Of a stretch of DNA of 41,465 bases, positions 12,568 through 39,072 are shown one piece after another. Position 1 is the stretch's first letter, and each line of letters begins with the position of its first letter. This DNA is from Acidobacteriaceae bacterium. GTDB lineage: Bacteria > Acidobacteriota > Terriglobia > Terriglobales > Acidobacteriaceae. Below the pieces are notes generated by a model that saw nothing but the letters and a program-made list of their open reading frames with translations, was not told the origin of the DNA and made no database searches. The stretch is taken from contig JANXZM010000088.1 of assembly GCA_025355505.1 (NCBI GenBank), forward strand, positions 1-41,465. The letters are read 5' to 3'. Made by a program: the position numbers and the translations under genes.

Positions 12568-14328
12568 ATGATGCAGAGGGTGTCTGGGCGCCACATCTCG
12601 TCGCTCCTCTTCGGAGTTGGTCTGCTGCTGGCCTTTGCTCTGGCTCCCGCTGTGTTTCCCAGCCCTTTCTTTCGCGTGGTCATGGGAGAACTCGTCCCAC
12701 TGCTGTTGATCACGACTGCCGCCATCCTCGCCGCCAGAAACGCGTTCGACAGCCGCGGACATACACGCCTGTTCTGGAGTCTTATGACGACGGGCATGGT
12801 CATGTGGTGTTTCAACCAGTCATGCTGGGTGTGGTTTGAAGTGATCGTTCGTACACCGGTGCCCGACCCGTTTCCGGGGGATATTGTGTTGTTCCTGCAC
12901 GTTGTCCCCCTGATGGCGGCGGTGGCCATCCGCCCCCATCAGACCACCGAGCGCGAGGGAATGTTGCCCAGTGCGCTGAATGTCCTCATGCTCCTGGTGT
13001 GGTGGATCGTGGTCTACGCCTTCTTCGTTTTTCCGGAGGAATACATCGTTACCAATCTTACGGTGTACAGCGTGCGCTGGGATTTCTTGTATTTCGTCGA
13101 AGGAGTGATATTGATTGCCGCGTCAGCGTCGGCATACTTTGGCAGCTCCGGATCGTGGCGCGAACTCTATCGCAATATGTTTTTCGCCAGCGTCCTCTAC
13201 ACATTTTCCTCGGAAGCCATAAATGCCGGCATCCTGCGCGGCACTTACAAAAGTGGCGGAATCTTCGACATCCCGTTTCTCGCCGCCGCGCTGGGGTTCC
13301 TTTGGGTCTCTATCGCCGGGCGGCGCTGCCTTCGCGATACCGAGATGACACCATCGATCGCGTTTGCCAGTCGACCGGTGGCTCCTCACCTGGCAAAGCT
13401 CGCCCTGCTCTCTCTGCCACTCATGGGATATTGGGCATTGTTCCTGAGCCACGACCAGCCTTATCTGCGCCAGGTACGTTTTGCGGTGGCCATGGGCGGC
13501 GTCGCCCTTCTCGCCTTTGTCGTTTTCCTCAAACAACATCTGCTGGACCAGAAGCTTCTGCGGTTGCTCAAGCATTCGCGCAACGGCTTCGATAATCTCC
13601 AGCGGCTGCAGGGAAGAGTAATCCAGCAAGCCAAGCTGGCCTCGCTCGGAGAACTGGTCGCGCTAGCCGCCAGCGAACTCGAGTTTCCGCTCTCAACCAT
13701 CCTCAGCAGCTCCGAACGCATGGCCGCCAGCAGCAACCTCAGCCGCGAGCAACTCTCCAACGCGCAGAAGATCGGCCAGCAAGCCCGGCGCACTCGCGAA
13801 CTGGTCGGCGATCTGCTCAGCTTCGCCCAGCAGACTCCTGGGGAAAAATGTCCTCTCGAACTGAAGCCTCTCTTGCAGCGCGCGGTTCAAATGGAAGGGT
13901 TCAAGCTGGAGAACAGGAAGATCAGCCTGACCGTGGAAAGCAACGAACCCCTTCCTAGAGTTCTCGGCAACGCCAACCAACTCTTGCAGGCCTTTCTTCA
14001 GATCGTCGAGAACGCCGTGGACGCATTACAGGAAATCGGCGGCGGGCGTCTCCAGGTCTCCCTCTGGCGCGAACACAACGAGGTGGTGGTGCAGTTCGCC
14101 GACTCCGGCCCCGGCTTGCGCGATCCCGAGCGCGTCTTCGATCCTTTCTATACCACCAAGCCGGTCGGCAAAGGCACCGGTCTTGGACTCAGCGCCACCT
14201 ACGGAGTAGTCCAGGACCACAAAGGACAAATCACGTGCTACAACCGCCCCGAAGGCGGCGCCGCATTTGAAATTCGGCTGCCCGTGCTCAAAGCCACCGC
14301 CCCACTTGCCGAAGCCGCCCGCGTCTGA
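12568..14328 (+). CDS. Membrane sensor histidine-kinase-like protein lacking the phospho-acceptor His
   Basis: The 586-residue protein has about seven to nine hydrophobic helices in residues 1-330, a HisKA-like helix pair at about 355-425 and a GHKL ATPase domain at about 430-578. The ATPase boxes look intact: N box [10 protein letters not shown]1 DSGPGL, F box FYTTK, G2 GTGLGLS. In the HisKA helix, where NtrB-like kinases have VAHEINNPL, this protein reads AASELEFPL, so Ser369 (AGC, 13672-13674) replaces the His. Autophosphorylation of the usual kind is therefore unlikely. No response regulator lies next to it. It is divergent from hemB, and ATG at 12571 is an equal alternative start. Confidence 0.85.
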
Positions 14329-14349
14329 GCCTGTCCAAGCACTGTCTTT

Positions 14350-15237
14350 CTATCCTCCACTCGCCACAATCGCATCCGCCACTCGTGCCGCCTCCACCGC
14401 AAATCGTACGTCGTGGGTCCGAATGATGTGCGCGCCTTTCAGGATCAAAGCTGTTTCCGCAGCCAGCGTCCCATAAAGCCGCTCGGTAACCTCCGCATCC
14501 TTGCCATCGCGCGCCAGCGTTCGTCCAATAAATGACTTCCGCGACACTCCTGCCAGCAGCGGGAAACCCGCCTGCTGCAAATCGGCAAAGTGCGCCAGCA
14601 GCGGATAATTCTCCTCGAAGCGTTTCCCGAACCCAAACCCCGGATCCAGCACCAGGCGATCGCGCTTGATCCCGGCCAGTGTTGCCGCCTCAGCCCACTG
14701 GCGCAAATCCCGCTTGACCATCAGCACCGGATCGCCAATCGGCGGCAGCGAGTGCCATTCCTCCGGCCGCCCGCGCGTGTGCATTAGCACCGCTCCCACT
14801 TTGAGTTCAGCCAGCGTTTTCGCCATCTTCGGATCCCAGCGGAATCCGCTCACGTCGTTCACAACTTCCGCTCCGACATCGACCGCTGCCCGCGCCACGC
14901 CCGCCTTGTGCGTATCGACGCTAACCACCGCATCCGGCCGACGCCGCTTCAAGTCCCGGATCACCGGCAGCACCCGCCTCCGTTCTTCTTCTTCCGACAC
15001 GGATTCCGTTACCAACGCCACCAACGCTCCTGGCCGCGTCGACTCCCCACCCACGTCAATGATGGTCGCGCCTTCGTCCAATAGCTGCTCGGCGCGGACC
15101 ACGGCCTTCTCGGCATCGATGTAGAGTCCACCGTCGGAAAACGAATCGGGAGTTACATTCACGACGCCCATGATCAGAGTGCGCCGCCCCAACTCAAGGA
15201 CGCGAGAGCCCACATTCCACTGAAAAATTGCGCGCAT
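14350..15237 (-). CDS. folP: Dihydropteroate synthase
   Basis: Joins p-aminobenzoate to the pterin pyrophosphate in folate synthesis; the target of sulfonamides. The 295-residue protein has the MGVVNVTPDSFSDGG motif at about residue 24, GATIIDVGGESTRPGA, VSVDTHKAGVARAAVD, VNDVSGF, LDPGFGFGKRFEEN and a C-terminal RTHDV, so all pterin- and substrate-binding segments are present. Its end lies 22 bp from the convergent kinase stop, and it diverges from dacB with about 53 bp between. Identity is secure. Confidence 0.96.
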   Translation of the reverse strand: MRAIFQWNVGSRVLELGRRTLIMGVVNVTPDSFSDGGLYIDAEKAVVRAEQLLDEGATIIDVGGESTRPGALVALVTESVSEEEERRRVLPVIRDLKRRRPDAVVSVDTHKAGVARAAVDVGAEVVNDVSGFRWDPKMAKTLAELKVGAVLMHTRGRPEEWHSLPPIGDPVLMVKRDLRQWAEAATLAGIKRDRLVLDPGFGFGKRFEENYPLLAHFADLQQAGFPLLAGVSRKSFIGRTLARDGKDAEVTERLYGTLAAETALILKGAHIIRTHDVRFAVEAARVADAIVASGG

Positions 15238-24723: not shown

Positions 24724-25293
24724 TTAAGGCTCCCGGCCTACACCCAGCGCGTCGGCTACGCGGTTGATGTAGTTGAACCAGGAAGCAATCAGCGTGATCT
24801 GCAGGATGGCCTGATCCTCGAAGCCTGCGGCCCGTAATTTCTCGTGATCGTCTTTGCAGACCTTGGTCGCGTCTTTGGTGAGCTTCACGACGTAATCGAC
24901 CATCACGCGCTCCTGCGGTGAGATGGACGCGGTGGTGTAATCGCGTTCCAGCGCTTCGACCAGTCCCTTATCCAGCGTGACGCGACGCAGAAACTCTGCG
25001 TGGGACTCGATTCAATACACGCACCGGTTGGTCACCGAGACCATGGTGGCGATCATCTCGTGATGACGCCGCTGCAGCGGCAGGTCGGGAGACATCAGCG
25101 CGCCGAAGGTCGAGAAGGCATGGTAAAGCGCCTGCGGGATGAGCGAGTGAGAGGCGACAATCAGCGAGCCGCCGCCTTCGGCAGGATGGATGGGAACGGC
25201 GTACTCCTGCGGATAAAGCGGCTTCTGCCCTTCCATTGCCTGCCGCAGTTCGTCGTCAGCTTCCGAGAACGGAATGGTACGAATCCAGGTCAT
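24724..25293 (-). CDS. AhpD-like peroxidase-related protein, candidate selenoprotein (in-frame UGA)
   Basis: Reads as one 189-residue carboxymuconolactone-decarboxylase/AhpD-like protein (peroxidase-related family) if the TGA at 25012-25014 is read through. Start is ATG 25293 (MTWIRTIPF), with GGAGGG about 11 bp upstream. N-terminal part: [27 protein letters not shown] and [12 protein letters not shown], then TGA, then [12 protein letters not shown] and a normal C-terminus ([17 protein letters not shown]). The TGA is exactly where family members have the second Cys of the redox CxxC (CVYC), so it would encode CxxU, with Cys91 and Sec94. The frame continues open for 95 further codons, and a perfect hairpin follows. 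The alternatives are a nonsense pseudogene or a sequencing error; the two halves would otherwise look like separate genes at 25012-25293 and 24724-24906. Confidence 0.8.
24985..25014 (-). promoter_or_regulatory. Candidate bacterial SECIS element after UGA
   Basis: On the mRNA, the UGA is followed after 10 bases by ACGCAGA-GUU-UCUGCGU: a perfect 7-bp stem with a three-base loop starting with G. The loop G lies 18 bases after the UGA, within the known range for bacterial SECIS elements (about 16-37) and close to the position in E. coli fdhF. It lies inside the coding sequence, as bacterial SECIS elements do. Its function is inferred from structure alone. Confidence 0.7.
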
Positions 25294-25571
25294 GGTTCGA
25301 TTTGCCCTCCACCCGGAGTTGCCGGCAAAGCATGCCTGCAATTCGGGCGTTTCCTCACCCTACACGCAGACCCCCGCAGTTGCCAATCGTTGCAAAGCGC
25401 TACCGGGCTTGGTGCTGGTAGCATGAACCTGAGCGGCTGCGGAATGCGCAAGTAAACATTCTATTGTGACGCAAGCTCACTGCGTTTCATTGCCGGCGGT
25501 CGATACTATTGGTCCAGGCGAGCTTCGTCTCGCGTTATATTTCGCTTGCAGTTGTTCTCAGGAGAACTCGG

Positions 25572-26876
25572 ATGCCGCAAGATACCTTGACCATCACCGA
25601 CAACCGTACCGGCCAGAGCTACACGCTTCCCGTCGAAAACGGAACCATCCGCGCGATGGATCTGCGCAAAATCAAGACCGCACCTGAAGATTTCGGCTTG
25701 ATGACCTACGACCCGGCCTTCATGAATACCGCGTCCTGCCGCAGCGCGATCACGTACATTGACGGCGATCGGGGAATCCTTCGCTACCGTGGCTATCCCA
25801 TCGATGTTCTCGCCCAACACTGTACGTATCTCGAAGTTGCCTACCTCCTTCTGTTCGGCGAACTGCCCAACCCGAGTCAATTGAAGAATTGGGTGGATGA
25901 CATCACCCACCACACCATGCTCCATGAAACGACCAAGAAGTTCATGGAGGGCTTCCGCTACAACGCGCACCCCATGGCGATTCTGGTGAGCACGGTGGCG
26001 GCGCTGTCGACCGTGTATCCGGATGCGAAAAACATTCACGACCCCGAGAACCGGCTGCTGCAGATCAAGCGCCTGATCGGCAAGATGCCCTCCATCGCGG
26101 CCATGTCGTATCGCCACATTGTAGGATTCCCTTACATCTATCCGGACAACGACCTCACCTATACCGAAAACTTCATGAATATGCTGTGGAAGATGGTGGA
26201 GCCGAAGTACGTCGCCAATCCCGTGATTGCCCGAGCGCTCGACATCCTCTTTATTCTGCACGCCGACCATGAGCAGAACTGCAGCACGAACGCCATGCGC
26301 GCCGTGGGCAGCTCCCACAGCGACCCCTACCTGGCCACGGCCGCCGCCGCCGCCGCTCTTTCCGGTCCCCTGCACGGTGGAGCTAACGAAGAAGTCCTGC
26401 ACATGCTCGACGAGATCGGGTCCAAGGACCACGTCCCCGCCTACATCAAGAAGATCAAGGAAGGCAAAGGCAGGCTGATGGGCTTCGGGCACCGGGTTTA
26501 CAAGAACTACGACCCGCGAGCCAAGATCATCAAGTGGGCCGCCGACCAAGTGTTCGAAGTTACCGGACGCAACACCAAACTTGAGATTGCTCTGGAGCTG
26601 GAGCGCATTGCGCTCGAAGACGATTATTTCGTGAGCCGCAAGCTCTATCCGAACGTGGATTTTTACTCCGGCATCATGTATCAGGCGATGGGCTTCAAGC
26701 CGGAGATGTTTACCGTGCTGTTCGCAATTCCGCGCACCATCGGCTGGCTGGCGCAATGGCAGGAAATGCTGACCGACCCCGAACAGAAGATCGCACGCCC
26801 GCGGCAGGTGTGGATTGGGCACGAAACTCGAGAGTTTGTGGCGATCGAGAAGCGAGCGGCGCTCGCCGCTAAGTGA
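25572..26876 (+). CDS. gltA: Citrate synthase (type I/II)
   Basis: Condenses acetyl-CoA and oxaloacetate, the entry step of the TCA cycle. The 434-residue protein has HADHEQNCSTNAMRAVGSSH with an active-site His, the GPLHGGANEEVL motif and the conserved GFGHRVYKNYDPRAKI, which holds another active-site His, then an FYSGIMYQAMGF segment with the catalytic Asp. Length and motifs fit Gram-negative-type GltA. The frame is open upstream to 25509, but ATG 25572 (MPQDTLTITDN) has GGAG 7 bp before it and starts with the family's N-terminus. Confidence 0.96.
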   Translation: MPQDTLTITDNRTGQSYTLPVENGTIRAMDLRKIKTAPEDFGLMTYDPAFMNTASCRSAITYIDGDRGILRYRGYPIDVLAQHCTYLEVAYLLLFGELPNPSQLKNWVDDITHHTMLHETTKKFMEGFRYNAHPMAILVSTVAALSTVYPDAKNIHDPENRLLQIKRLIGKMPSIAAMSYRHIVGFPYIYPDNDLTYTENFMNMLWKMVEPKYVANPVIARALDILFILHADHEQNCSTNAMRAVGSSHSDPYLATAAAAAALSGPLHGGANEEVLHMLDEIGSKDHVPAYIKKIKEGKGRLMGFGHRVYKNYDPRAKIIKWAADQVFEVTGRNTKLEIALELERIALEDDYFVSRKLYPNVDFYSGIMYQAMGFKPEMFTVLFAIPRTIGWLAQWQEMLTDPEQKIARPRQVWIGHETREFVAIEKRAALAAK

Positions 26877-38982: not shown

Positions 38983-39072
38983 GGAGAGGTGGCCGAGTGG
39001 TTTATGGCTCCGGTCTTGAAAACCGGCATACCCGAAACGGTATCGGGGGTTCGAATCCCTCCCTCTCCGCCA
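38983..39072 (+). tRNA. tRNA-Ser (anticodon UGA)
   Basis: A 90-base tRNA with acceptor arms GGAGAGG/CCTCTCC, discriminator G, and encoded CCA (39070-39072). The anticodon loop CTTGAAA gives UGA, reading UCA. A long variable arm and T arm GGGGGTTCGAATCCCTC confirm serine. It is not the selenocysteine tRNA: that would have an 8-bp acceptor stem and anticodon UCA. Confidence 0.97.

Follow-up and report, generated by a model that had tools for sequence, protein, structure and literature searches.

A gene interrupted by a single UGA

What does a UGA codon mean when it stands in the middle of an otherwise ordinary AhpD-like reading frame of a soil acidobacterium? The frame lies on a 41,465-nucleotide stretch of DNA from an Acidobacteriaceae bacterium (contig JANXZM010000088.1, positions 1 to 41,465, assembly GCA_025355505.1), the whole of which is referred to below as the window. 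It runs on the minus strand from 25293 to 24724 and comprises 189 codons from ATG to TAA with a single in-frame TGA. Under the standard code it ends at this TGA (25014-25012) after 93 codons, and the ORF list closes it there; another 95 sense codons lie beyond. The initial annotation had described an AhpD-like frame broken by one TGA at the second Cys of a CVYC redox motif and continuing for 95 codons to its usual end. Translation reproduces this description and supplies the strand, which the annotation had left out: the motif reads C91-V-Y-U94, the candidate selenocysteine (Sec) is residue 94 within a stretch of 13 residues, and the UGA occupies the second CxxC position, with 95 sense codons following before the TAA. 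The gene very probably encodes a selenoprotein, in which UGA94 would be read as Sec by means of SelB and a SECIS element to give a CxxU redox enzyme of the AhpD/CMD fold. The features on which the argument turns are listed here.

24724..25293, minus strand: candidate selenoprotein gene, AhpD-like (TIGR01926, CMD fold), from translation, matches to TIGR01926 and Pfam CMD, and full-length relatives.
25012..25014, minus strand: UGA codon, predicted selenocysteine 94; TGA at 110 of 110 loci (30 plus the best 80 of 231, own gene L022 included), with Cys codons in some farther homologs and in one near ortholog.
25021..25023, minus strand: Cys91, CxxU partner of Sec94 with a putative resolving role; present in all 20 Sec sequences of alignment A1, replaced by Thr in the Cys-type ortholog L185.
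25057..25059, minus strand: Glu79 of the AhpD-type proton relay; invariant in alignments A1 and A2, with the spacing of PA0269 (PMC3141380).
25000..25002, minus strand: His98 of the proton relay, whose codon overlaps the start of the hairpin by two bases; A1 and A2 show no other residue here.
24985..25001, minus strand: SECIS-like hairpin with a 7-bp stem (24995-25001 with 24985-24991) and a GUU loop (24992-24994), from folding, codon constancy, covariation and a scan of the TGA triplets of the window.

Family, fold and predicted chemistry

The window protein scores 117.4 bits against the NCBIfam model TIGR01926, "peroxidase-related enzyme" (cut-off 81.8), and 35.4 bits against Pfam CMD (cut-off 23), and all 24 members of alignment A2 match TIGR01926 at E ≤ 0.001. 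The canonical AhpD model TIGR00777 is not reached (21.6 against a cut-off of 191.95 bits). Two further models, NF041238 AhpD_rel_CFYUT and NF053654 for YciW-related (seleno)proteins (GroundWater_YciW), also align with the CMD part of the protein (residues 50-186 for the first, 76-185 for the second), at scores far under their cut-offs (60.3 against 175 bits and 32.7 against 310 bits).

AhpD-like CxxU selenoproteins have been known since 2005, and the window gene adds a member to them. A Sargasso Sea study of that year placed an AhpD-like protein (COG2128, CXXU, 27 sequences) among its new selenoprotein families (PMC1088965), a 2008 GOS paper had 299 such sequences under the name "AhpD-like 1" (PMC2398784), a 2022 review likewise includes an AhpD-like selenoprotein (PMC9312934), and Table 1 of a 2026 review gives "AhpD-like protein, TIGR01926, CxxU" (PMC13188914). 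The annotation had stated that Sec-containing AhpD-like proteins are known, and the first and last of these sources (PMC1088965; PMC13188914) agree. In common with this family (TIGR01926/COG2128, CxxU) the window gene scores over the cut-off of the NCBIfam subfamily and has CxxU with the UGA at the second Cys; as in the Sargasso Sea family, a stem-loop lies directly downstream of the UGA. The hosts differ, being soil Acidobacteriota for the window gene whereas the Sargasso Sea family came from marine metagenome reads. The published representative of the family is MCB9421940.1. Within the phylum, a 2006 survey attributes to Acidobacteria four selenoproteins in three families (PMC1794560), and the deep-Sep study counts three genes of known selenoproteins in a single acidobacterium (PMC12013277). 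No description of this acidobacterial AhpD-like group was found in the open-access literature searched, and the window gene is, as far as the searches go, new by sequence and by host; it perhaps belongs to an uncurated soil subfamily.

The AhpD-like family is described by a proton relay, which in PA0269 (2O4D) is formed by Glu36, Cys48, Tyr50, Cys51 and His55 (PMC3141380). The window protein has the same relay at identical spacing (E-12-C-2-Y-1-U-4-H), and its residues E79, C91, Y93, U94 and H98 are all invariant in A1, an alignment of 20 hand-chosen Sec sequences in which invariant residues extend as far as position 187. At the site of Sec94, the alignments of PA0269, 3c1l and 2pfx have Cys, and the second-Cys site it occupies is that of Cys133 in Mycobacterium tuberculosis AhpD. 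An AlphaFold2 model built on a 24-sequence alignment is nearly all-helical (mean pLDDT 81.6, residues 1-6 below 50). Its five top-ranking structural matches in the PDB are chains of 6k40, 2oyo, 3c1l and 2prr (TM 0.76-0.79), Cys-type proteins named AhpD-like or "peroxidase-related" that have the fold in common with the window protein at 24-27% identity. M. tuberculosis AhpD (1gu9, 1knc) shares the local CxxC helical hairpin motif (PMC3141380) and is a weak match to the model as a whole (TM approximately 0.4-0.5, E of about 0.1 or more).

These features suggest a course of events from codon to catalysis. At UGA94, SelB carrying Sec-tRNA(UCA) would bind the hairpin just downstream and selenocysteine would be inserted, whereupon translation would run on through residue 189 to the TAA. 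What results would be an all-helical protein of the AhpD/CMD fold with its CxxU pair set within the relay E79-C91-Y93-U94-H98. The selenol of Sec94 would most likely attack peroxide, or an oxidized thiol partner, and a Cys91-Sec94 selenenylsulfide would form and then be resolved by a cellular thiol reductant. From the sequence we infer Sec insertion, SelB binding and the chemistry of a selenol peroxidase or disulfide reductase.

Could such a selenoprotein mainly catalyze something other than the reduction of peroxides, such as a reductive dehalogenation or some other selenol or thiol reaction of the CMD fold? We regard this as unlikely, though it is the alternative that deserves most weight. 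The full relay at its exact spacing argues against it, given that the all-Cys PA0269 shows weak thiol-dependent reduction of H2O2 (PMC3141380), and the closest structures are named antioxidant, AhpD or peroxidase-related. In its favor, the debrominase Bmp8 (6ohi, 6ohj) is found among the more distant structural matches (TM approximately 0.69, 15% identity), and the canonical AhpD model lies far out of reach. Gene neighborhood counts on the same side: the frames next to the gene in the window recur at no more than 32 of 108 loci, an absence that is weak because the flanks span only about 1.5 or 3 kb. The frame at 32 loci is a divergent one encoding a putative citrate synthase (25509-26876), and all other neighboring frames are seen at 28 or fewer.

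Selenol-based peroxidase or disulfide reductase activity of the full-length protein is thus the favored reading, but would the truncated product matter as well? Sec codons in general compete with termination, and a selenium shortage could lead to termination at the UGA and a deliberate 93-residue protein. That both products have a role is nevertheless very improbable, since in the model the short form would end one residue into helix 92-106, without Sec94, His98 and all later helices.

Conservation of the UGA and of the protein beyond it

Is UGA94 kept in relatives, and with it the protein that follows? The relatives were assembled as 110 loci (L022-L131), of which 30 come from a set of 61 genomes that includes the host and 80 are the best of 231 found on contigs of named genomes. 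They hold 94 distinct coding sequences, the 16 duplicates stemming from genomes present in both collections, and comprise three distant members (L049-L051) and one visibly broken copy (L048, genome G017). TGA stands at codon 94 in all 110 (30 plus the best 80 of 231, own gene included), although Cys forms lower among the 231 could escape the best-80 sample. Recurrence at all these loci excludes a sequencing error, and the doubt raised in the initial annotation, that resequencing might turn the TGA into TGC or TGT, is removed with it. In 85 comparisons of the window gene with distinct sequences whose proteins reach 70% identity to its own, median dN/dS was 0.136 for codons 1-93 and 0.086 for codons 95-188; the part after the UGA is therefore under protein selection at least as strong as the part before it.

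Farther homologs vary at the site. Among 41 distant loci the codon is TGA in 29, Cys in 11 and Ala in one; 38 of these were chosen by hand from distant matches, with TGA-containing ones favored, and were joined by L049-L051, so that the figures are no census. When 396 genomes were drawn evenly from the Acidobacteriota, 77 had a match at E ≤ 1e-20, and 59 of the 60 Acidobacteriota matches fetched could be placed at the site (57 TGA, two TGC). The one dropped, L241 of genome G373, matches over residues 118-188 only, at 56% identity and on a contig that continues, and is possibly a truncated or frameshifted copy. Aligning homologs had been put forward as the way of telling whether the position is Cys or Sec, and the answer is UGA at all 110 loci (30 plus the best 80 of 231) and Cys in some distant forms and one near ortholog.

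Several other sequences were noted in the course of these searches. Nine orthologs (L098, L116, L118, L123, L125-L127, L130 and L131) that are 72-77% identical and carry the same hairpin letters lie on contigs labeled Gemmatimonadota (eight) or Latescibacterota (one), as a result either of transfer or of mis-binning. Other CMD/AhpD-like groups (L136-L138, L140-L143, L145-L148, L152 and L154-L165) have UGA at the same Cys and, as we read their folds, often a well-paired hairpin of other letters with its loop 1-3 bases farther downstream. The host genome itself has two paralogs. L153 (contig C39, approximately 54383-54739) is a Cys-type CMD/AhpD protein with the motif NGCHYCTQHH and adjoins selB on the opposite strand; L166 (contig C72, approximately 13984-14496) is a CMD protein with NGSEYAIAAH, lacking either redox residue. 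In a quick tree of 133 rows, which took every second near locus and held 119 Sec and 13 Cys rows, the L153 clade mixes three Sec with seven Cys forms, and the rows nearest to L166 are L161 and L165, both with UGA at the site.

A SECIS-like hairpin under selection

Bacterial SECIS elements are stem-loops placed directly after the UGA, with a small apical loop that contains G (PMC1088965). The window hairpin, ACGCAGA-GUU-UCUGCGU, is likewise an adjacent stem-loop with a small G-containing loop. It covers positions +11 to +27 after the UGA, from which it is separated by 10 bases, and its loop G lies at +18. The initial annotation had reported this 7-bp hairpin, its start and its loop G, and it was found at 25001..24985 of the minus strand. 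A perfect 7-bp stem with a 3-nt loop at +11 follows only this one of the 1107 TGA triplets on both strands of the window; with the conditions loosened to a perfect Watson-Crick stem of 7 bp, a loop of 3-8 nt and a start at +6 to +25, the number is 12 of 1107. Compared with shuffled sequences its folding energy is unexceptional (z = -0.31 over 45 nt and -0.49 over 40 nt), which makes the hairpin of a single sequence weak evidence.

The comparison of relatives is more telling. Codon constancy was assessed at 105 conserved degenerate columns in 86 distinct sequences with 70% or more identity to the window protein; in the median column the commonest codon accounts for 60%. The codons of H98-R103 (CAC GCA GAG TTT CTG CGT) are six of the seven most constant: synonymous change is wholly absent only at A99, E100, F101 and L102, and next in rank come H98 and R103 (84 of 86 sequences alike), level with Y175. 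When six columns were drawn at random 100000 times, no draw was as low as the hairpin codons, a result uncorrected for kinship, and median dS is 0.00 in these codons against 1.38 in codons 104-188.

Pairing was followed in 114 Sec sequences, all different from one another in the 33 nt after the UGA; in the aligned part, the most distant of them have a protein identity of approximately 34%. All seven pairs are formed in 89 of them and six in another 11. The mean is 6.53 pairs and falls to 1.4-4.4 when one arm is slid by 1-3 bases. Pair +14/+24 is C-G in 82 sequences and G-C in 21, pair +17/+21 is A-U in 90 and C-G in six, and pair +15/+23 is G-U in 19. In the 33 relatives below 50% identity the mean is 5.73 of seven pairs, compared with 4.03 (sd 0.16, maximum 4.61) in 500 trials of synonymous recoding. 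The first loop base (+18) is G in 106 of the 114, and 69 carry the identical 17 nt of stem and loop. Nine distant Sec relatives retain just 3-4 of the seven pairs, and for several of these an alternative downstream hairpin is predicted.

The six near-constant codons, and the shifts of stem sequence with pairing kept in distant relatives, together argue that the hairpin is under selection at the RNA level. Of the claim that it is a SECIS element, conservation and covariation give strong support and folding energy gives none (z = -0.31 and -0.49). Homologs without a conserved hairpin would have spoken against it; instead its nucleotides are conserved, and its paired bases covary among distant relatives.

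Selenocysteine-decoding genes in the host and its relatives

Is the host equipped to decode Sec? Its genome, 96% complete at 4.16 Mb in 119 contigs, contains a single selA (540 bits against a cut-off of 267.9), one selB over the cut-off (387 against 242.25 bits), a tRNA-Sec (69.7 bits against 47) with anticodon UCA according to ARAGORN, and a selD scoring 360 bits across two pieces of one frame. The annotation had supposed a Sec-decoding host, and the genome accordingly contains selA, selB, tRNA-Sec(UCA) and selD. The selD frame has an in-frame TGA of its own, in the motif AAGUASK (L170:1542-1544; contig C57, about 28341), behind which a 7-bp stem closed by a GGU triloop is predicted, an architecture similar to that of the AhpD-like hairpin. 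In the window, a tRNA-Ser(UGA) at 38983-39072 on the plus strand barely passes the Rfam tRNA-Sec threshold (47.2 against 47 bits) and would, on the strength of a family search alone, be mistaken for a second selC. The classic selenoprotein, the alpha subunit of formate dehydrogenase (FdhA), has five matches in the host genome, all of which stay under the cut-off and read without a stop across the matched region; FdhA thus seems not to be what the Sec machinery is retained for.

Across the first set of 61 genomes, selA exceeds its cut-off in 50, and in 24 of the 27 that have the Sec gene, the other three being 75-82% complete. With selA in 50 genomes and the Sec gene in 27, many Sec-decoding relatives must do without this AhpD-like gene. 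From the 396-genome draw, selA was tested in 45 of the 77 genomes with a match, G000, G029 and G033 being tested in the 61-genome set. It is over the cut-off in 14 of 17 genomes with distant forms, the other three being 72-75% complete, and in two of 18 same-family genomes without an AhpD-like match. G297 (90% complete) has the UGA gene and selA, and its two best matches to the tRNA-Sec model are tRNA-Ser.

Among the 59 placed Acidobacteriota matches, the group at least 59% identical contains a single Cys copy, L185 of genome G073 (TGC), in which the first motif Cys is replaced by Thr (TxxC) and three of the seven hairpin pairs are left. G073 is 99% complete and gave no match to selA; its two tRNA-Sec-model matches at E ≤ 1e-7 are tRNA-Ser(UGA) and tRNA-Cys (150 of 503 candidates scored). 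The 25 other genomes of the group that were tested all have selA over the cut-off. In the quick tree L185 falls inside a well-supported clade of 58 rows, the remaining 57 being Sec forms. Because the copy is nested among these, its simplest reading is a probable Sec-to-Cys reversion coupled with loss of the Sec trait. The second TGC case, a distant Cys form in G350, keeps selA.

Other readings of the UGA

Would some other form of recoding serve equally well? A changed code, or near-cognate readthrough to Trp or Cys with the hairpin as a mere stimulator, would also yield the full-length protein, whose selection past the UGA such a reading would explain, and hairpins that follow a stop codon can in principle promote readthrough. 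UGA is, however, the ordinary stop of nine of the 26 long frames of the window, as listed by hand, and a changed genetic code is rejected on this ground. The complete Sec machinery of the genome argues against the remaining variants, as do the non-UGA homologs, mostly Cys (11 Cys and one Ala among the 12 distant ones, and two of two Cys in the phylum set), and G073, where the absence of a selA match goes with TGC at the site and a hairpin gone to three of seven pairs. Recoding of this kind is therefore very unlikely. Least likely of all, to a degree that makes it negligible, is a nonsense mutation or sequencing error in a decaying gene whose downstream frame is a remnant: the ORF list closes the frame at the TGA and the G017 copy is visibly broken (two matches overlapping in different frames, with an ambiguous base), but this pseudogene reading is rejected by the conservation of the UGA in many genera (110 of 110 loci, 30 plus the best 80 of 231), by the dN/dS of 0.086 past it and by invariant residues up to position 187.

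Significance for the family and its hosts

Insertion of Sec at UGA94 being the favored reading, what does the gene add? The conceptual surprise is modest because the enzyme family is already known, and its value is that of a clean and well-documented case. A gene caller that takes UGA as stop ends the protein after residue 93, and a conserved soil selenoenzyme is thus likely to be overlooked or annotated as a fragment. The collected set, with 119 Sec and 13 Cys rows, a covarying SECIS and one probable reversion, offers a compact test case for SelB recognition and for the loss of Sec.

A wider picture can be drawn tentatively, and we would put it at somewhat less than an even prospect. The window gene may be the soil representative of a distinct, uncurated subfamily of AhpD-like selenoproteins, nearly always of the Sec form in Acidobacteriota and with close copies in Gemmatimonadota-binned contigs. 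Its SECIS would be nearly frozen in its letters, as if SelB read stem and triloop as a specific sequence, and Sec would be lost, maybe, only along with the Sec trait, as in the single case of G073. In these soil lineages it may then be small redox selenoproteins, and not formate dehydrogenase, that keep the use of selenium alive.
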